A stretch of DNA of 64,000 nt from Saprospiraceae bacterium (lineage in GTDB: Bacteria; Bacteroidota; Bacteroidia; Chitinophagales; Saprospiraceae): assembly GCA_030729925.1 (NCBI GenBank), contig JANQWK010000096.1:1-64000 (forward strand), in the 5' to 3' direction. The notes below the pieces were generated by a model. It was not told the DNA's origin. It did no database searches and was given only the letters and a program-made list of their open reading frames with translations. Shown in pieces: positions 28,202-57,686 of this stretch (within the stretch, counting starts at the first letter, position 1; the number at the start of each line of letters is the position of its first letter). Both the position numbers and the translations under genes were made by a program.

Positions 28202-29461
28202 ATGAAAGCTAGCATTATTACCATCGGCGATGAAATTCTCATCGGCCAAATCGTTGATACCAATTCTTCCTGGATTGCCCAGCAACTCAACCTGGCAGGC
28301 ATCTGGGTTCACCAAATGCTTTCCGTCGGAGACGAGGAGGCAGCTATCCAACAAGCGCTCCGCGATGGACTCGCCGATGCAGACTTGCTTGTGTTCACAG
28401 GTGGGCTAGGGCCAACCAAAGACGATATTACTGCTCGTACGTTCGCCGATTTTTTTGAGTGTCCCTTAGTGTTCGATGCCGCTACTTATGATCATATTTG
28501 CCGGTTTTTTGAAAGACTCGGCCGAACAGCAGGGGAAGCGCACCGCCGACAGTGCTTCCTACCCGAAAAAGCGATATTGCTCCCCAACAGCATGGGAACA
28601 GCCCCGGGAATGTGGTTCGATCACCAAGGCAAGGTAGTTGTCTCCCTCCCAGGAGTACCTTACGAAATGAAATCCCTGATGGAAAAAGAGGTACTGCCCC
28701 GCCTTCGGCAAAAATTTAACATACAGGCCGTCGTACATCGCACTATTCTCACCGCTGGAGAGGGCGAATCGCGCATCGCCGAACGCCTCGAAGTTTTCGA
28801 AAACGAATTACCCCCTTTCGTCAAACTCGCTTATCTGCCCAATCTCGGACAAGTAAGATTAAGACTAAGCGCAAAAGGTAACGATCTCCAACTCGTCCAA
28901 CAGGTTGTTCAAGATAAAACCCAGGAGCTGATCAATATTATCCCAGACCTGGTGTTCGGTTTTGATCAGGAGACCCTCGAAACTGTACTCGGACAACTGC
29001 TACTCGATAACAACCTCAGCCTGGTGACCGCAGAGAGCTGCACCGGCGGTCGCATCAGTCATACCCTCACTTCCGTACCAGGGTCTTCCGCCTATTTCAA
29101 AGGAGCTTTAGTGGCTTATTCCAATGAGCTGAAAGTTAACCACCTCGGAGTTTCAGCGCAAACCCTGGCACAACACGGAGCCGTGAGCGAAGCTACTGTT
29201 GTCGAAATGGTAAAGGGCGCGCTCCATGCCTACCAGTCAGACCTCGCCATCGCCGTATCAGGGATTGCAGGCCCGGGCGGCGGAACTCCGGAAAAACCTG
29301 TAGGTACGATTTGGGTAGCTGTTGGAAATCAACATTATGTGGCTACTCAAAAACTTCAATTAGGTAAAGATCGCATGCTTAATATCAAGTTTACCACTAC
29401 TTTCGCACTCAATATGGCACGCCAGTTTGTGGTTAAACACTATCCCGCATCACAGCCTTGA
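28202..29461 (+). CDS. cinA: CinA family: competence/damage-inducible protein with NMN deamidase domain
   Basis: Two-domain enzyme of nicotinamide nucleotide recycling. The N-terminal MoaB/MocF-like part (SIITIGDEILIGQIVDTN, then GGLGPTKDDIT) is a pyrophosphatase-like domain. The C-terminal PncC-like part (LVTAESCTGGRIS, then AVSGIAGPGGGTPEKPVGT) deamidates NMN. Length 419 is normal. It follows birA closely, and the next gene downstream has its own promoter. Confidence 0.93.
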   Translation: MKASIITIGDEILIGQIVDTNSSWIAQQLNLAGIWVHQMLSVGDEEAAIQQALRDGLADADLLVFTGGLGPTKDDITARTFADFFECPLVFDAATYDHICRFFERLGRTAGEAHRRQCFLPEKAILLPNSMGTAPGMWFDHQGKVVVSLPGVPYEMKSLMEKEVLPRLRQKFNIQAVVHRTILTAGEGESRIAERLEVFENELPPFVKLAYLPNLGQVRLRLSAKGNDLQLVQQVVQDKTQELINIIPDLVFGFDQETLETVLGQLLLDNNLSLVTAESCTGGRISHTLTSVPGSSAYFKGALVAYSNELKVNHLGVSAQTLAQHGAVSEATVVEMVKGALHAYQSDLAIAVSGIAGPGGGTPEKPVGTIWVAVGNQHYVATQKLQLGKDRMLNIKFTTTFALNMARQFVVKHYPASQP

Positions 29462-29473
29462 CCCAAAGATTGG

Positions 29474-29505
29474 TTTGATTTCCCGATTTAATTGAACTAA
29501 ATTTG
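29474..29505 (+). promoter_or_regulatory. Bacteroidota-type promoter for the E2 gene
   Basis: TTTG at 29474-29477 and TAAATTTG at 29498-29505 match both consensus elements exactly, with a 20-bp spacer, ideal for the housekeeping sigma factor of this phylum. The E2 ATG lies 51 bp downstream. Confidence 0.75.
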
Positions 29506-29556
29506 CGAAGCAATTTGTAGCCCTGACCAAAGTACAACCAAAAAACAATTACGACA

Positions 29557-30849
29557 ATGGCAAAATTTGAATTACTCCTGCCCAAAATGGGCGAAAGTAT
29601 CATGGAAGCCACCATTCTGAATTGGGTGAAGAACGTAGGTGATACTATAGAAGCAGAAGAAACCATCGCAGAAATTGCTACCGACAAAGTGGATTCTGAA
29701 GTACCCTCACCCGTTGGCGGAACAATTACCAAGATCTTCTTCAAAGAAAATGATACCGTTCCCATCGGAGAAGTAATTGCCTGGATTGAAACAGGTGCTG
29801 CAGTAACTACTGACGATACTCCTTCCGCAGCCGCGGAGTCCACCGAAACTGCTTCATCCGAAGATCATGTTCCAGTTCGCGAAAGGGCTGCCGAACCGAC
29901 ACCCTCTTTCGAAAATAGCAACAGGTTTTATTCTCCCCTGGTGAAAAATATCGCCAAAAAAGAACAGATCTCTATTCAGGAACTGGACATGATTCCAGGG
30001 ACAGGTATGCAGGAGCGCGTCACCAAAAAGGATATTCTCAATTACCTGAAAGATAGAGCCACTGCTCCCTCTTCACAAACACAAACACCAGCTCCGGCAC
30101 AACAACAAAAACCGGCTGCAGCAGCGGTTGTACACAACGGCAATCACGATATCATCGAAATGGATCGCATGCGAAAACTGATCGCAGATCACATGGTGAT
30201 GTCCAAACATACTTCTCCACACGTGACTTCCTTCGTCGAAGTGGATGTTACCAATCTTGTTGAATGGAGAAATAAGGTAAAAGACCAGTTCAAGGCAAAG
30301 TTCAACCAAAGCATCACCTTTACGCCTATCTTTATGGAGGCCACCGCAAAGGCGATCTTGGACTTTCCCATGATCAATATTTCGGTTCAAGGTGATAAAA
30401 TATTGAAAAAACACGCGATCAATATAGGTATGGCAACAGCCCTGCCCAGCGGCAATCTGATCGTGCCCGTAATTAAAAATGCCGACCAACTTAACTTGAT
30501 CGGACTTACCAAAGCCGTGAACGACCTGGCCGATCGCGCCAGAACCAACAAACTGAAACCTGAAGAGATTCAGGATGGTACATTCACTATTACCAATGTG
30601 GGTACCTTCGGGAATGTCATGGGCACTCCCATTATCAACCAGCCACAAGTGGCCATCATGGCTGTAGGTGCAATCCGAAAAAAACCGGCAGTGGTAGAGA
30701 CTCCCTATGGCGATCTTATTGCAGTGCGTCAACTGATGTTCCTTTCCCTGTCCTACGACCACCGCGTGGTAGATGGATTCCTGGGCGGATCGTTCCTGAG
30801 ACGGGTAGCCGATTATCTCGAAGCTTTTGATCCCAATAGAGCGTTCTAA
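29557..30849 (+). CDS. 2-oxoacid dehydrogenase E2 (dihydrolipoamide acyltransferase)
   Basis: Core acyltransferase of a 2-oxoacid dehydrogenase complex. Order: lipoyl domain with the lipoylated lysine in EIATDKVDSEV (about residue 43); an Ala/Glu-rich linker; the E1/E3-binding domain near 125-160 (YSPLVKNIAKKE); another linker rich in Pro/Ala/Gln; and the catalytic domain ending with the histidine motif YDHRVVDGFLGG. Length 430. It has a strong promoter of its own and no E1 or E3 neighbour. A branched-chain specificity is likely, but pyruvate cannot be excluded. Confidence 0.9.
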   Translation: MAKFELLLPKMGESIMEATILNWVKNVGDTIEAEETIAEIATDKVDSEVPSPVGGTITKIFFKENDTVPIGEVIAWIETGAAVTTDDTPSAAAESTETASSEDHVPVRERAAEPTPSFENSNRFYSPLVKNIAKKEQISIQELDMIPGTGMQERVTKKDILNYLKDRATAPSSQTQTPAPAQQQKPAAAAVVHNGNHDIIEMDRMRKLIADHMVMSKHTSPHVTSFVEVDVTNLVEWRNKVKDQFKAKFNQSITFTPIFMEATAKAILDFPMINISVQGDKILKKHAINIGMATALPSGNLIVPVIKNADQLNLIGLTKAVNDLADRARTNKLKPEEIQDGTFTITNVGTFGNVMGTPIINQPQVAIMAVGAIRKKPAVVETPYGDLIAVRQLMFLSLSYDHRVVDGFLGGSFLRRVADYLEAFDPNRAF

Positions 30850-30961
30850 GGGTCAAAAAAGCCTAAAGGCCATATTGTAGGCAGGCTACATACAAAAAAC
30901 AGGATCACTTCGTTATCATAAGTGTTGTAAAAAGACTTTGACTAACATTCTTTTGGGCGCA

Positions 30962-33016
30962 ATGAGACATATCCTGATATTTGTTGTATGCTGCTTTTGG
31001 GGGCTTCCCCTTGTCGTTAGCCAATCTGACGGCTTTGACAAAAACCCCGATATCCGGATGTACTTTCGCTTTGAAAAGTACCAGGATGCCATTAGTCTGA
31101 TCAATTCCAATAAAAAATACGCCCAGAACGAAGAAAACATGCTGCTGGCAGCCATAGGTTACTATCACCTCAACCAGCTCGAAAAGTCTGAGGTACTGCT
31201 CCGCGCCCTACTGGACAAACAAAAAAATCCCTATCCTGAAATATGGCTTTTCCTGGGGAAAATTAATCACCACAAACACCAGTTTGGCGAAGCTTCTGAT
31301 TATTACCGGCAGTACCTGCGCAACCTGGGTAACAATATTTTTGAACGATCCTATACCTGGAACCTGATCCGGATGTGCGCCAATGGTCTTCAGCTACAAT
31401 ACCGCGAATCAGCCGTGTTTGTAGAGAATGTTGGCCGAGATATCAATACACCCGACGATGAGTTTACTCCTAAACCCAGCCCAAATTTTGGAGACCGATT
31501 GTATTTTTCTTCTATCAGACCAGGCAATATGGGGGGAGCTAAAAATCAATACGGTATTACCGACCAGGTACTCGGATTCTATAAAAGTGATATGTTTTCA
31601 GCGGTCAATAAAAACGGTCTATGGACCGCAGCAACACCGATGCACTACTTGCTGAATAGCCCCAACCACGATATTTTACTGGGCTTTGATCCGGACGGAC
31701 AAAAAATGTATTATTTCCAAGGTGCTTCCATGACACAGGGGGTGCTCATGGAAAATATTTTCCGACAGGAAGAGACACAAAATTACAACTCCTTCCCCAG
31801 TACCGTTCCACTGGATTTGGCCAATGGCGATGACACGCCCCATTTTGTCAGTGACGATCTGGTCTTTTTTGCCAGCAAACGCGATGGCGGATATGGCGGT
31901 TATGACTTGTATAAAATGGAGCGCATCAACGGAGCTTGGCAGGCACCCGTCAACCTTGGCTCCAAAATCAATACCCCCGCCGATGAACGATCTCCCTTCC
32001 TCGCAAGAGACGGCATCACCCTGTACTTTTCGTCCAACGACAGCGGTAGAAGTATAGGCGGCCTGGATATTTTTAAAGCTACTTTTGTATCGGCTTATGA
32101 GACCTGGACGGATCCGGAAAACCTCGGTCTGCCTATCAACTCAGCCGGAGATGAAGATCATTTTTACCTCAACCCGGATGGGTTCAGTGCATTTTTTAGT
32201 TCGTCCCGAAAAGATGGCTACGGACAACGAGACATCTATATCGCGTACTTCGATAATTTTTTGCCGGAGATGGAATATACAGCTCCTGTTGCCGTTACTA
32301 CCCCTACTCCTAATGACTCCAAACCTGTTCTAACCACTCCGGAGCACCCCTTTTCCTGGGATATCGGTCATGCAAATACCCTCCCAGAGCAGGATCTTAC
32401 TTTTTGGCAAACCAATTTGCTCGCCTATCCGGATGTGCATCTGCTCATCTCAATTGGCTTTCCTTATCCCTTTCAGGGAAAAACCCTGGAAGATTTTCTT
32501 GCCCTTGGAGAAAAAGTCAAGCAGCGTTTTGCCCAATTGGGTGTCTCGTCAAAACGATTACATCTCCGATACCTGCCACAGCTTCAAAGTCCTGCTTACG
32601 CCCAAAAGGGTGCAGCCACGTTGGCCTTTTCTTTTTTTCAACCCAGCCCCGGGCTAAATTTACCCGAGCTTTTCAGAGATCCAAAATCCGAGTCACCCAC
32701 AGCACCCATTAATTTCCCTTTTATGTATAAGGTGCAAATTGCCTCTTCCAAATCGGGTAATATCCTGAACATCATGCAACCCCATCTCGACGAGCAAACG
32801 ATGATAGAAAAAACCGATGCTGGTTTTTTGCGCTTGACAATCGGAGCTTTTGATCGGTTTGCCGATGCCAATGCCTACAAAAAGACATTGGCCGGCAAAG
32901 GCTTAAGAGACGCTTATATCGTACCATTTGTATTTCGAGTCAGGGCCGAAAAGTCTAGTATTGAGCTATTTTCACAACAATTTCCTGACTTTTTGCATTT
33001 CCTTGATACTTTTTAA
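30962..33016 (+). CDS. Envelope protein with TPR, PD40 beta-propeller, OmpA-like remnant and SPOR domain
   Basis: Exported protein of 684 residues. Signal peptide MRHILIFVVCCFWGLPLVVSQ, then TPR-like helices (about 25-130), then a beta-propeller of PD40/WD40-like repeats (for example FASKRDGGYGGYDLYKM and YFSSNDSGRSIGGLDIF, about 140-440). Residues about 490-560 (LLISIGFPYPFQGKTLEDF onward) follow the OmpA-C pattern but lack its peptidoglycan-binding Asp and Arg. A SPOR-like domain at about 585-660 (YKVQIASS then LTIGAFDRFADANAY) could bind denuded peptidoglycan. It resembles T9SS PorE in layout but with a different anchor. ATG at 30962 is used; a TTG eight codons upstream is less likely. Confidence 0.75.
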   Translation: MRHILIFVVCCFWGLPLVVSQSDGFDKNPDIRMYFRFEKYQDAISLINSNKKYAQNEENMLLAAIGYYHLNQLEKSEVLLRALLDKQKNPYPEIWLFLGKINHHKHQFGEASDYYRQYLRNLGNNIFERSYTWNLIRMCANGLQLQYRESAVFVENVGRDINTPDDEFTPKPSPNFGDRLYFSSIRPGNMGGAKNQYGITDQVLGFYKSDMFSAVNKNGLWTAATPMHYLLNSPNHDILLGFDPDGQKMYYFQGASMTQGVLMENIFRQEETQNYNSFPSTVPLDLANGDDTPHFVSDDLVFFASKRDGGYGGYDLYKMERINGAWQAPVNLGSKINTPADERSPFLARDGITLYFSSNDSGRSIGGLDIFKATFVSAYETWTDPENLGLPINSAGDEDHFYLNPDGFSAFFSSSRKDGYGQRDIYIAYFDNFLPEMEYTAPVAVTTPTPNDSKPVLTTPEHPFSWDIGHANTLPEQDLTFWQTNLLAYPDVHLLISIGFPYPFQGKTLEDFLALGEKVKQRFAQLGVSSKRLHLRYLPQLQSPAYAQKGAATLAFSFFQPSPGLNLPELFRDPKSESPTAPINFPFMYKVQIASSKSGNILNIMQPHLDEQTMIEKTDAGFLRLTIGAFDRFADANAYKKTLAGKGLRDAYIVPFVFRVRAEKSSIELFSQQFPDFLHFLDTF

Positions 33017-49558: not shown

Positions 49559-52500
49559 TTAATTGCCAGGCTTATCCTTCAGGTTTTGAAAGTAAGATTC
49601 CACCAAAAATTTATAATAGGGTTTTAGAGAAGGAGAAACCGTTTTGTACAGGTCAATTTCGGAAGACCTTTTTTTCAGGTACTCCTCCATGGACGGGGGT
49701 CTTTTCCGTTCTACATTTTTAGCGACTTCCGACTTGCGTTTTTCGTCATATTCCCGTTGGCGTTCGGCCTTTTCATATTCGAGCAACCGGGTTTGAATAT
49801 CTTGTTGGCGTTCCAGGGTTTGGTTATTGAGACGTTTATTAACCAGATCAGTTTCTGTCTCGTCCATCAAGTCAATCATTTCCTGAAGTTCTTTATCCCC
49901 TTTGCCTTGTTCTCTCAGCTTTTGTTGTTTTTCGCGCATTGCTTTTCGGAGGGCAGCCTGTCGGGCGGCCATGCGGGCATACTCTTCGCTTTTAGCCTGT
50001 TCGCCATTCTCGAGTGCCTCTTTCATGCGTTTCAGCTGATCATTCAATTGTTGTTGACCTTTGGACATTTGGTCGCTGGGCGTATTTTGATCTTGGGGTT
50101 TATTCCCATCCTGGGGTTCGTCTTCTGAGGGCTTACCGGAAGACCGCATAGAAGACATCTGTTGTTGCATTTGATTCAGCACTTCGCTCAGCATCAGCGC
50201 CAAGTCGTTGATATTGGTCATAGTAAGCTGTTGCAGTCGTCCTGCCTGAACCTTCTTCCGCTCTTCCAGCTCATCTATACTCTGTTGGAGACCGCGATTG
50301 ATATCCGTCACTTTGCCGGTGACGAAAGATTCTATTTGGAACACCCTTTTGCTCAAAGCCTGGAGACTGTCCTCCACCAATTTGAAATCATCTTTCAACT
50401 TAAACTGATCCTGTACCAGGCTGGTATAAGCGGGAGTATTGATATTGGTTTCATCAAGTGCCGTAATCAGGTCCTCCTGGTCGAAAGACAAGCCCACCAA
50501 ATTTTCCAGCAATTGTCGCAGGGATGCCATATCCAGCTGGAGCTGTTCCATTTCGCCTGCCTGCATATTAGACTGCATGGACGCTGCCATTTCCTTCATC
50601 CCTTTAGCGGCATTTTTTTGAGACTTAGCCGCCTTATCATTCTGCTCCTTTTGCAACTCCTGTTCACTCAGATCCAGATCCTGTTTGATATCCTCCATTT
50701 GCTGTTCATAATCCTCCATTTTCTTAGGATTCTCCAGGCCATTATTTTTTTCCTGGATATCTTTCATTTCCTGTTGGAGTTTTTCGAATTGTTCGTTGAT
50801 CTCCTCTTGTTTTTGCTGGAGCTCATCCTGGCTTTGGGCGTTTTCGGGATCCTTCGCGGATTGTTCTGTTTCCTTTTGCAAATCCTCCTGTTGTTTGGAC
50901 AATTCATCCAAATCGCTGAGCATTTCCTTCATTTCCTGTTCCAACTCCAGTTGTTTGAACAGTTCCAGCATCCTATCCAATTCTTTTTCCATTTCGGAAT
51001 CATTCATCTGCATCTCGTCCATCATCTCCAGCGCCTGATCCTTTTCCAGCTGCTGCATCAGTTCCTCTATCTGTTCCATCAGTTGCTGCATCTCTTCGCT
51101 CATCAGTTCTTCAAATAGTTCCTGCAGCTGTTCTTGTTTTTCCAGCAGCGCTTCATCCATTTCATTGAACTCCTGTTGGTTTTCCAGATTTTCCTCAAAA
51201 GCCTCCTTCGCCTCTTCAACTTTTTGCTGTACCTCTTTTTGTCGTTCGAGCAGATCTTCCAATGATTTTTTATCCTGCCAATTCAGATTTTTCTGTTGGA
51301 GCAACTTTTCTCTCATCTTTTTGAGATCCTCCTGTATTTTGGCTGCCTCTTTCAGGGCATCTTCCAGTTCGCTCTTGATCAAGTCTTCATTTTCCTCTGC
51401 CTGAGCCTTATACGCTTCCACGCTTGGTTTGGCGTAGCGCATGGGGTTCGTTCTGGAAGACTTGCTCCCATTGATCTGATCGTTGTCAAAAACTTCGAAA
51501 TAATAGCTGACCTCATCTCCGGGTCGAAGATCCAGGTCGGTCAGATCAAAAGCATATTCATACTGAACCGCCTTGGCGGAGGGATTATCCAATTTGATAG
51601 AAACGGGAAGACTTGTCTCTCCAGAAGCCCGCTGCAATTGATAATTAAACGAAAGGCTGAGCAGTCCATAGTCATCACTGGCCTCACCGGCAAAATAAAG
51701 CAAGGTAGCCAGGGTACTATCGGCAAAAACATTGACGCTGATATCGGGATATTGATCGGGGATCACCGTAATGCTATAAGAAATAGAGTCTCCCGTAGGA
51801 AGTTCCTCATTGCGCACAAAAATCTGGTATTGTTCATCCTTGGAAGCTTTTCGCTTCAAGCTGTAACTATCTTTCGAGAAGCGGGTAGCCTCTTCATAAG
51901 TATCTGTTGCCGAAAATTTCACCTGAATCGTACCGGTATGTTCGGCATTGAATACCCAGTTGATCTGGGTTCCTTCGGGGACAATCAGATCGCCTGTATT
52001 TGTTCGGGTTTCGTCGGTTCTGCCCACGTAGCTTGGATAATCGAGGTTCACCTCAAAACCCAGGATATTGGGTTTTTCCAAGACTTTCAGTTCCAGTTTT
52101 TCCGAAGACACCCCGCTTGCAGACAAGCGGAAAACCGTATTTTCCTTAACATTGCTAAAGCGATAAGAAAACTCATCTGGTGCAACTTGGGAAAGTCGGT
52201 ACTGGTAATCTCCGAACTCAATAAACGCCTCATTGGGAAGTTCCCGGCCAGTGATTTTTACCGCAAGGTCGAAGTCGCCATACTGAACTACCTCCAGGGC
52301 GGATGCATCTACCACAAAAGTGAAGGGGGCGGGTTTAACAAACTCCTTACTATTATTGATCAAGCGATTGGTGCTATCTGTGATCACTCCGGGAGCTGCA
52401 ATCAAAATAAACAGCAGCACCAGAAGAGGAGGAAGTGCGTAGCGCAGGTATTTTCGGTTCTTGGACAAATCTATCGCCTTAACAAAAGGAACAAGCTTAA

Positions 52501-52921
52501 TCGCTGCTGATTTTTGCTCGATACTGGCCAACAACAAAGAATTATCTTCTGCCTGCTGCAGATATTGGTTCAGTTGGAGTGTATTCAGCAATTTATCGCT
52601 CACATCGCTAAAGTGCTGGCCTATCAACTCCGCTGCTTTTTCGCGGGAAATGGTTTTGCCTAGGCGAAAATAACGGATCAGGGGCATAGCCACCCAATAG
52701 GTTCCCGAAGCTACGCTGGTCAAAATAAAGGAGTAGAATAGGAGTTTTCGCGTACCTGTTCCAAAGTAGTAATAATGCTCTAGCAAGTTCATGGCCAGGA
52801 AGAGGATACCGGTGAGGCCGACGAAGTACAAACTTCCCTTCAGGAGTTGGTTGATATAGTACTTTCGGACAAACTGATCCAGCTTTTCAATGAGCAGATC
52901 AAAATTACTTGTTGCAGCCAT
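49559..52921 (-). CDS. DUF4175 family membrane protein with long coiled coil
   Basis: Protein of 1120 residues. Two membrane helices near 25-45 and 60-80 and a third near 165-185 precede a beta-rich region (about 190-520) and then about 500 residues dominated by Glu, Gln, Lys, Leu and Met in a heptad pattern, a long coiled coil. The C-terminus is charged with KRKSEVAKNVERKRPPSMEEYLKKR. The layout matches DUF4175, found in Bacteroidota and some Alphaproteobacteria, and is uncharacterised. Upstream of the RsbW-like gene by 123 bp on the same strand. An envelope structural role is inference. Confidence 0.8.
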   Translation of the reverse strand: MAATSNFDLLIEKLDQFVRKYYINQLLKGSLYFVGLTGILFLAMNLLEHYYYFGTGTRKLLFYSFILTSVASGTYWVAMPLIRYFRLGKTISREKAAELIGQHFSDVSDKLLNTLQLNQYLQQAEDNSLLLASIEQKSAAIKLVPFVKAIDLSKNRKYLRYALPPLLVLLFILIAAPGVITDSTNRLINNSKEFVKPAPFTFVVDASALEVVQYGDFDLAVKITGRELPNEAFIEFGDYQYRLSQVAPDEFSYRFSNVKENTVFRLSASGVSSEKLELKVLEKPNILGFEVNLDYPSYVGRTDETRTNTGDLIVPEGTQINWVFNAEHTGTIQVKFSATDTYEEATRFSKDSYSLKRKASKDEQYQIFVRNEELPTGDSISYSITVIPDQYPDISVNVFADSTLATLLYFAGEASDDYGLLSLSFNYQLQRASGETSLPVSIKLDNPSAKAVQYEYAFDLTDLDLRPGDEVSYYFEVFDNDQINGSKSSRTNPMRYAKPSVEAYKAQAEENEDLIKSELEDALKEAAKIQEDLKKMREKLLQQKNLNWQDKKSLEDLLERQKEVQQKVEEAKEAFEENLENQQEFNEMDEALLEKQEQLQELFEELMSEEMQQLMEQIEELMQQLEKDQALEMMDEMQMNDSEMEKELDRMLELFKQLELEQEMKEMLSDLDELSKQQEDLQKETEQSAKDPENAQSQDELQQKQEEINEQFEKLQQEMKDIQEKNNGLENPKKMEDYEQQMEDIKQDLDLSEQELQKEQNDKAAKSQKNAAKGMKEMAASMQSNMQAGEMEQLQLDMASLRQLLENLVGLSFDQEDLITALDETNINTPAYTSLVQDQFKLKDDFKLVEDSLQALSKRVFQIESFVTGKVTDINRGLQQSIDELEERKKVQAGRLQQLTMTNINDLALMLSEVLNQMQQQMSSMRSSGKPSEDEPQDGNKPQDQNTPSDQMSKGQQQLNDQLKRMKEALENGEQAKSEEYARMAARQAALRKAMREKQQKLREQGKGDKELQEMIDLMDETETDLVNKRLNNQTLERQQDIQTRLLEYEKAERQREYDEKRKSEVAKNVERKRPPSMEEYLKKRSSEIDLYKTVSPSLKPYYKFLVESYFQNLKDKPGN

Positions 52922-56582: not shown

Positions 56583-56909
56583 TAAAATGATTACTTTTAT
56601 GCGTCTGATTCAATTGTAGGAGATTAAAGCAGGGCAATACCCTCGCTATGAGCTGCAAAATTATACTTTTTAAAGGTAATACTAAATTTTGGCATAACTT
56701 AACTAAAATCAAAGCTAGGGAAGGTCTTTAACGCGAACAAGCACGTTGTGGGAAGGATAAGTTTGAAAATCCTACGAAAATCACATCAAATCCTGTGCAA
56801 ATTATAAAATTTTAACCTCTTTTTTTACCTTTGAAGCGGTTACATTCACTACCCAGACATAACCTGAGGAAGTTAAGAAAAAAATTTGTTAATTAAACTT
56901 AAATTGAAC
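56583..56909. other. Divergent intergenic region before the OmpA lipoprotein gene
   Basis: About 327 bp, AT-rich. TACCTTTG at 56826-56833 (plus strand) fits the -7 element for the OmpA gene but has no clear -33 partner; TAATTTTG on the minus strand (56656-56663) could serve the hydrolase gene, likewise without -33. No RNA gene or convincing small frame was seen. Confidence 0.5.
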
Positions 56910-57686
56910 ATGCGCCAAGTACTGAAACTAATGGTCGTTCTCCTTGTTTTCGGCTCCCTATCGTCTTGCGTTTCTAAAAAGAAACACGACGAATTGGTAG
57001 CATCTAAAGAAGCTACAGACCAGGCTTTAGCTGAAACCCAATCCAATCTGAAAAATCTTCAGGAAGAAAAAGACGCACTGGCTGCACAGATGGCAGCAGA
57101 AACTAAGCGTTTGAATAGTGAGCTTGACGGTTTGAAGTCTGAGCTTAACTCTACTAAAGGCCAGGTTTCTCAAATGCAGCAAAAACTATCCATGACTGAG
57201 GCCGAGTTGGCTGCTATCAAGGGTGAAATCACTGGAATCTTTGAAGCTTATTCAGGAAGTGGTCTGACTGTTGAAGAAAAAGACGGTAGCATCTATGTGA
57301 TGACCAGCGAAAAGCTCAACTACAGAAGTGGTTCTGCAAGAGTAAACAGCGACCAACGCAAAGCGATCAAAGCACTTGCTGAGACGCTTAAAAGCAATCC
57401 AGAGCTGACTATTCTTGTAGAAGGTCACACCGACGATGATAAAATGGTAGCAGGTGCTGCTTTTGCAGACAACTGGGAATTGAGCACAGAGCGCGCCCTT
57501 ACCGTAATCCGCGAGTTGGTAAAAGCGGGTGTAAATCCTGCACAGCTTGCAGCTGCCGGCAGAAGCGACAACGAGCCTGTAGGTGACAACGAGACCAAAG
57601 ACGGAAAAGCGATGAACAGAAGAACTGTTATCAAAGCTGATCCAAACATGAAAGGTCTTTTCGAGAAGGCAATGAAGAAAAACTAA
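56910..57686 (+). CDS. OmpA-family lipoprotein with coiled coil
   Basis: Outer-membrane lipoprotein of 258 residues: lipobox SLSSC (cysteine 20), a coiled coil from about 25 to 110, and an OmpA-C domain (about 125-245) with LTILVEGHTDDD and the peptidoglycan-contacting arginine near NWELSTERA, plus NRRTVIK at the end. It would tie the outer membrane to the cell wall like Pal. ATG at 56910 is used; a TTG eight codons earlier is less likely. Monocistronic, with a terminator. Confidence 0.93.
   Translation: MRQVLKLMVVLLVFGSLSSCVSKKKHDELVASKEATDQALAETQSNLKNLQEEKDALAAQMAAETKRLNSELDGLKSELNSTKGQVSQMQQKLSMTEAELAAIKGEITGIFEAYSGSGLTVEEKDGSIYVMTSEKLNYRSGSARVNSDQRKAIKALAETLKSNPELTILVEGHTDDDKMVAGAAFADNWELSTERALTVIRELVKAGVNPAQLAAAGRSDNEPVGDNETKDGKAMNRRTVIKADPNMKGLFEKAMKKN

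Follow-up and report, generated by a model that had tools for sequence, protein, structure and literature searches.

A TPR-propeller protein of Saprospiraceae with a degenerate OmpA-like domain and a putative SPOR wall anchor

We tentatively propose, with somewhat less than even confidence, that a 684-residue protein from a Saprospiraceae bacterium is an exported scaffold now held to the cell wall by its SPOR domain, its OmpA-type domain having lost the ligand pocket while keeping the fold. Judged by sequence, orthologues of this protein keep both anchors, one of them, or apparently neither, and in this family domain swaps could tease apart what OmpA and SPOR each contribute to where the same scaffold is placed. 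What places each PorE-like propeller protein in the envelope has, to our knowledge, been little studied. Bacteroidota have many such proteins, with a published count of 424 and up to 13 per species (PMC5053529).

Gene and domain layout

The gene and its two upstream neighbours lie in the window, by which we mean the whole stretch of 64,000 nucleotides that was analysed. Their features are as follows.

28202..29461, + strand: cinA-like gene, second upstream neighbour
29557..30849, + strand: E2-like gene (2-oxoacid dehydrogenase), immediate upstream neighbour
30962..33016, + strand: whole gene; ATG start, open reading frame 30962-33013 and then the stop; 684 aa
30962..31021, + strand: export signal, residues 1-20; signal-peptidase-I type by eye, no lipobox, cleavage site inferred
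31043..31396, + strand: TPR region, residues 28-145; Pfam TPR_2 in 58 of 61 orthologues (E ≤ 1), helical in the model
31409..32254, + strand: PD40 propeller, residues 150-431; Pfam PD40 E 1.3e-16, found in 61 of 61 orthologues (E ≤ 1)
32255..32347, + strand: linker, residues 432-462; pLDDT below 50 at 443-455, no CRD match listed
32348..32641, + strand: degenerate OmpA-C-like domain, residues 463-560; from family profiles and predicted fold
32462..32464, + strand: Pro501, at the place of PorE Asp576 (the DAP-contacting Asp) by the 61-row alignment and spacing
32483..32485, + strand: Thr508, at the place of PorE Asn584 by spacing
32504..32506, + strand: Leu515, at the place of PorE Arg591 by spacing
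32717..32944, + strand: SPOR domain, residues 586-661; Pfam SPOR 28.3 / 28.6 bits when cut out (cut-off 21)
32735..32737, + strand: Gln592, at the place of the SPOR glycan-contact Gln (RlpA Gln270) by motif and CwlC alignment
32831..32833, + strand: Arg624, aligned with CwlC Lys47 of the SPOR basic patch; numbering counted by hand
32945..33007, + strand: family-specific tail, residues 662-682; consensus end PDLxNYL

In a Pfam scan of the single 684-aa sequence, PD40 scored above its cut-off, TPR models matched below theirs, and no OmpA match was returned. SPOR reached 14.2 bits with the whole protein, below the cut-off of 21, and 28.6 bits when the last 98 residues were searched alone. The single sequence thus shows TPR only weakly and OmpA not at all, and both assignments depend on the orthologues. 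Combining Pfam, orthologue profiles and AlphaFold2 confirmed the order of TPR, PD40 propeller, decayed OmpA-C and SPOR that the initial annotation had read from the gene.

A simple pattern, applied in place of a signal-peptide program, found no lipobox in the 684-aa protein. The same crude pattern matched 4/61 orthologues and 0/23 members of the degenerate clade described below, with one clade row lacking its N-terminus and the start codons of the other 60 orthologues guessed by script. Decay into a pseudogene was ruled out: the matches used are free of internal stops and the propeller is constrained. Elsewhere in the window lie a separate OmpA-family protein (56886-57686; 266 aa, E 3.7e-17) and a 1120-aa protein with a partial DUF4175 match (49559-52921).

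Orthologues and gene neighbourhood

With the C-terminal 256 residues as query, 78/150 genomes of the same family matched at E ≤ 1e-3, the organism's own included. The main alignment (A1) holds 61 rows, namely the 684-aa protein and the 60 best-scoring of the 77 other genomes, with the 17 weaker ones left out; its rows were picked by C-terminal likeness to the 684-aa protein, which biases it toward rows that retain SPOR. Alignments A5, A6 and A7 comprise 51, 35 and 20 of the same 61 rows. The relatives belong to the Saprospiraceae, Lewinellaceae and Haliscomenobacteraceae in NCBI terms. A profile of SPOR plus tail was searched against 248 genomes of the order and 395 of the phylum; among the matches listed, only this family reached at least position 97 of 101 in frames of 700-830 residues, and diverged members were present in some of the 72 genomes that had no C-terminal match. 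One orthologue, from Flavilitoribacter nigricans (L061 / L139), stops directly after SPOR and is without the PDLxNYL tail.

Immediately upstream of the gene is a gene that we take to be 2-oxoacid dehydrogenase E2-like, and before it one that is presumably cinA-like. A relative of the E2-like gene was found in 50/61 loci, 49 copies of which occupy position -1, and a cinA-like relative stood second upstream in 36/61, some loci ending at a contig edge. The three genes (28202-33016 in the window) are kept together in many loci of the family. The conserved neighbours of the propeller gene look metabolic.

The OmpA-like domain

Pfam OmpA matched 54/61 orthologues at E ≤ 1, and a profile built from the 23 degenerate C-termini alone matched solved OmpA-C domains with a best E of 4.3e-5. 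Alignment of the degenerate region by hhalign to seven OmpA domains of the same genome returned 97.5% (E 5e-12), with 1.6% for a SPOR slice and 0.2% for a TPR slice as controls. AlphaFold2, given only the 23 degenerate rows, produced a model (pLDDT 86.7, pTM 0.86) with the strand and helix order of OmpA-C followed by beta-alpha-beta-beta-alpha-beta. Among the best 50 rows of a Foldseek search with this region, four were IspF-type enzymes and the rest were Pal, OmpA, MotB and similar domains or machine chains holding them, with PorE (6top) at rank 23; the best 50 VIA rows were Pal/OmpA/MotB-type domains or machine chains holding them (Z 9.5 to 7.7). Both the beta-alpha-beta-alpha-beta-beta fold of OmpA-C and the profile likeness were therefore found through the family rather than from the single sequence. 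Searches of the PDB with single sequences gave nothing or chance-level tubulin rows only, and a structure search with the full model returned propeller matches alone, mostly glycosidase- or phosphorylase-type (Z up to 18.2).

An HMM of the seven true OmpA domains of the organism's own genome did not list the 684-aa protein and listed the other 22 clade rows at E 2.3e-9 to 3.2, and one built from the 38 intact orthologues gave the 684-aa protein an E of 0.32. Judged by profile scores, the protein sits at the far end of OmpA decay among the clade rows.

The residues that would form the pocket divide the family. In 38/61 rows Gly539, Pro543, Asn551 and Arg553 are invariant (38/38 each), and 18 of these 38, all outside the degenerate clade, carry both Asp501 and Arg515. 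Within the degenerate clade, 0/23 rows have both the pocket Asp and Arg, and the NR motif (Asn551/Arg553) is gone. By hand-counted spacing, the 684-aa protein has Pro501, Thr508 and Leu515 at the PorE contact places Asp576, Asn584 and Arg591. The early reading of an OmpA domain deprived of its peptidoglycan-contacting Asp and Arg thus held, as did its expectation for the C-terminus, where an OmpA-C fold was predicted and SPOR scored 28.6 bits when cut out.

On a quick-method tree of the TPR and propeller columns only, the 23 degenerate rows formed one group (SH-aLRT 100), and loss of the NR motif mapped as a single change on its stem. The clade includes Flavilitoribacter nigricans, Lewinella cohaerens, Phaeodactylibacter luteus and P. 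xiamenensis; Aureispira falls outside. Taken singly, Asp and Arg each changed eight times on this tree, indicating that pocket residues were lost outside the degenerate clade too. Domain order, orthology, a single loss of the OmpA motif and the kept SPOR positions described below are shown by sequence and predicted models.

Within the clade the OmpA-like domain is the least conserved of the four domains. Because most pairs were saturated at synonymous sites, the comparison used non-synonymous distances only. The dN of the OmpA-like domain was the highest of the four in 4/5 clade pairs and near the top in the fifth; between the 684-aa protein and its sister L043 it was 0.594, against 0.234 for SPOR and 0.172 for the propeller. 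The ratio of OmpA to propeller dN ran from about 1.6 to 4.1 in five clade pairs vs about 0.8 to 1.4 in three pairs elsewhere. Arg536 was present in 23/23 clade rows, where it is the only invariant OmpA-like column of the clade alignment (A2), and elsewhere Lys is the commonest residue at that place (68%). New clade preferences within the domain include ITAY and Phe558.

The SPOR domain

The SPOR region aligned in 61/61 orthologues, including the 18 with both OmpA Asp and Arg. Since it is present in rows with an intact pocket, SPOR would predate the decay of OmpA, in a sample whose rows were picked by C-terminal likeness; the initial annotation had called it an added domain, which does not fit a region older than the decay. 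A conserved Gln and one residue of the basic patch are kept. Gln592 was found in 23/23 clade rows vs 31/38 elsewhere and Arg624 in 23/23 vs 14/38, and Pfam recognised SPOR at E ≤ 0.01 in 22/23 clade domains vs 12/38 others, all of these being counts of related sequences. The clade SPOR profile aligned to CwlC (1x60) at E 0.019, with Arg624 falling on Lys47, and the secondary-structure order of the predicted C-terminal end fits SPOR. No SPOR row appeared among the best 50 rows of each structure search with the degenerate C-terminus, where OmpA rows fill the lists. In the protein's own SPOR, conserved residues are replaced, Gly659 by Arg and both Tyr623 and Tyr625 by Leu.

At matched propeller identity, both C-terminal domains are less conserved in the clade than elsewhere, and OmpA far more so. 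In the propeller bands 0.46-0.50, 0.50-0.54 and 0.54-0.60, SPOR identity in the clade and elsewhere was 0.384/0.458, 0.402/0.507 and 0.440/0.549, and OmpA-like identity was 0.191/0.395, 0.209/0.402 and 0.254/0.461, with 66 clade pairs and 46 pairs elsewhere in the middle band. A wide propeller band (0.40-0.55) gave 0.212/0.372 for the OmpA-like domain and 0.402/0.423 for SPOR; this near-equality of SPOR arises because clade pairs are closer on the propeller (0.520 vs 0.453). The idea that SPOR is equally conserved in the clade and elsewhere therefore fails in the narrow bands. SPOR dN exceeded propeller dN in 4/5 clade pairs, and elsewhere in 1/3 and barely. A test of independent pairs between the OmpA Asp and SPOR positions gave no signal, with six pairs at most.

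A second sample and the Haliscomenobacter branch

A second set was gathered through propeller motifs, and 51/69 named loci passed a filter on length and score. Several of its rows are from the same species as rows of A1, and 20 of the 51 entered the second tree. The NR motif is missing from 39 rows, of which 32 keep both the SPOR Gln and Arg and 7 do not; in the 12 rows with NR, one of them cut short, Gln was found in 10 and Arg in 3. The seven exceptions are the Haliscomenobacter group (L163, L164, L166, L167, L168, L171 and L174), with frames of 663-667 aa and the same two upstream genes. In this group the OmpA pocket and both SPOR contact positions are lost, SPOR is worn, and the OmpA-like region matches the clade profile at E 1e-7 to 1.2e-6. 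Its rows nest within the degenerate clade with SH-aLRT 100; their branch is long, and the lineage of the 684-aa protein is nearest kin at only 88. By sequence, both wall grips appear to have been lost in this branch, so a hand-over to SPOR would be no law of the clade.

Other propeller and SPOR proteins

The organism's own genome encodes 11 propeller proteins of this kind, the studied one included. Eight of the 11 carry OmpA, with L112 under the cut-off (26.6 vs 27.2 bits). L106 (C62) has a CRD and two SPOR stretches in tandem with no OmpA match, and L110 (C89) pairs a weak CRD match with a C-terminal SPOR-like region visible to family HMMs only, again with no OmpA match. Another, L105 (C33), is PorE-like and carries a further Ig domain of DUF1573/HYDIN type behind OmpA; relatives repeatedly show PorE-model matches in long frames of 820-1000 aa.

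We also considered 20 loci of other families in the order, a non-random choice made by frame length in which SPOR calls come from family HMMs. Two combine propeller, OmpA and SPOR-like regions (L202, L203), seven have a propeller and a SPOR-like region without OmpA (L196-L200, L206, L211), three have two OmpA-like regions and a SPOR-like one with no propeller match (L205, L207, L210), and eight are SPOR-like only. Pfam at E ≤ 0.001, run on eight of these proteins, listed SPOR for three of them, with one above the cut-off. Swapping and stacking of OmpA and SPOR modules seems to have been repeated in this order.

Interpretation

In the reading that we tentatively favor, the protein would be a periplasmic scaffold, exported through a cleavable signal peptide and free of a lipid anchor, whose TPR and propeller domains may bind envelope partner proteins. 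Its OmpA-like domain would at one time have held DAP in the peptide stems. The lineage of this protein has since lost the pocket residues, and the OmpA fold may be left as a spacer or packing platform. Because the two positions at which solved SPOR domains touch glycan still carry Gln and Arg here, attachment to the wall would most likely be through denuded glycan, that is, glycan stripped of peptides, which amidases make at division sites. Actual binding, a septal address and partners of the scaffold are inferred. A shift of the anchor from peptide stem to denuded glycan is plausible from the alignments, but it would be a single event.

The initial annotation had suggested that the anchor moved to SPOR. 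This stands insofar as the OmpA contacts are lost and Gln592 and Arg624 are kept, and is weakened insofar as SPOR is also less conserved and the Haliscomenobacter group lost both. We regard as rather unlikely a full hand-over within one orthologous gene, whereby a dual-grip scaffold dropped OmpA and changed its address from the whole sacculus to division sites, with relatives showing the stages OmpA only, both, and SPOR only. The drop of SPOR identity in the narrow bands lowers the odds of the favored reading and of such a hand-over and raises those of a C-terminus that is losing its wall-anchor role altogether, with OmpA going first, SPOR relaxing, the TPR and propeller working alone and the fold kept for stability. 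Such a loss, which we hold to be a real possibility if short of probable, would account for both contact sets having gone in the nested Haliscomenobacter group, for the lower SPOR conservation in the clade (0.402 vs 0.507 at propeller 0.50-0.54), for distances to L043 that exceed the propeller's 0.172 in both SPOR (0.234) and the OmpA-like domain (0.594), and for the unusual residues in the protein's own SPOR. Plain relaxation would not, however, favor a Gln592 and Arg624 that are invariant in 23/23 clade rows and kept in 32/39 of the second set, and Pfam still recognises SPOR in 22/23 clade domains (E ≤ 0.01).

It is improbable that the OmpA-like domain instead changed its ligand, with a pocket remodelled for some other wall or protein ligand and SPOR as an accessory. 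In its favor, the degenerate rows alone suffice for a confident prediction of the fold, and the clade has preferences of its own in Arg536 (23/23, with Lys commonest elsewhere at 68%), ITAY and Phe558, but the domain is the least conserved of the four, has the highest dN in 4/5 clade pairs, and retains Arg536 as its sole invariant column in A2. Less probable still is that the protein is this organism's PorE, anchoring the T9SS, a reading toward which the initial annotation's PorE-like label and suggested T9SS link point. The order of TPR, propeller and OmpA is common to both, the PorE model (NF052230) gives 138.3 bits over residues 38-427, and T9SS genes exist in the genome (SprA 2378 bits, GldK 562 bits; 53/54 sorting-domain matches over cut-off among the matches listed). 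That score is nevertheless far under the cut-off of 600, a threshold that nothing in 40 genomes, the organism's own among them, passes, and a search of the genome for a canonical PorE, which the initial annotation had called for, returned two PorE-like proteins, C16 and C33, at 391 and 371 bits and with most of the model covered; each of the 40 contains something that matches the PorE model at 1e-60 or better. The 684-aa protein also lacks a lipobox, had no CRD match listed at E ≤ 10 (a search in which weak matches may be filtered), has lost the pocket, and lies beside conserved neighbours that look like cinA and a metabolic E2. We rejected membership in PorE or the T9SS on these grounds, and a T9SS link of this protein is unsupported.

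Relation to known systems

Already known are an OmpA-like domain that does not bind DAP (Tp0624) and proteins built of TPR, propeller and OmpA (PorE, CHU_0125). Our literature search, with preprints and most subscription journals outside it, returned no published report of the TPR-propeller-OmpA combination with SPOR or of its history, and nothing on this specific protein beyond the relatives cited here.

PorE (PG1058) of the Porphyromonas gingivalis T9SS has a TPR, a propeller and an OmpA-C-type fold in the same order (PMC7192894, PMC5053529), and the side chains of Asp576, Asn584 and Arg591 are described as contacting DAP (PMC7192894). As described there, PorE is an outer-membrane lipoprotein with a CRD and an intact DAP pocket, whereas the 684-aa protein is without these and has SPOR at its end. 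Homologues of PG1058 with C-terminal extensions are mentioned in PMC5053529 as data not shown. CHU_0125, described as an outer-membrane integrity protein of Cytophaga hutchinsonii (PMC5891637), shares the TPR, PD40 and OmpA architecture, and its model (NF053607) was the best NCBIfam match of our protein at 139.3 bits; the cut-off of 620 is well above this, the match ends at residue 436, ahead of the OmpA-like and SPOR domains, and another protein of the genome, L111, scores 440.9 bits on the same model. Domain D3 of Tp0624 (Treponema pallidum) is reported to have an OmpA-like fold, to have lost the critical Asp and not to bind DAP (PMC5104382). It differs in retaining the essential Arg and in its other domains, and the available text of that source mentions no SPOR.

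The conserved SPOR Gln is described as a glycan contact, and Lys47 of CwlC is counted in the basic patch (PMC6895207). By alignment, the Gln and one basic-patch position would be common to the SPOR domains of RlpA, DamX, FtsN and CwlC and to that of the 684-aa protein. Known SPOR domains, as PMC6895207 in part describes, are carried by proteins of division or morphogenesis and by wall enzymes, unlike the putative glycan-binding SPOR here, which follows a degenerate OmpA domain in a propeller scaffold. The closest arrangement among the loci examined is that of L202 and L203, from another family of the same order, in which PD40 is followed by OmpA and then a SPOR-like region, as in the 684-aa protein. 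By score their OmpA domain is intact, at 60.6 / 61.7 bits for a cut-off of 27.2. Matches of CRD type are weak and under cut-off, and the SPOR-like region is seen through family HMMs; Pfam SPOR reaches 20.6 bits in L202, against a cut-off of 21, and is not listed for L203.
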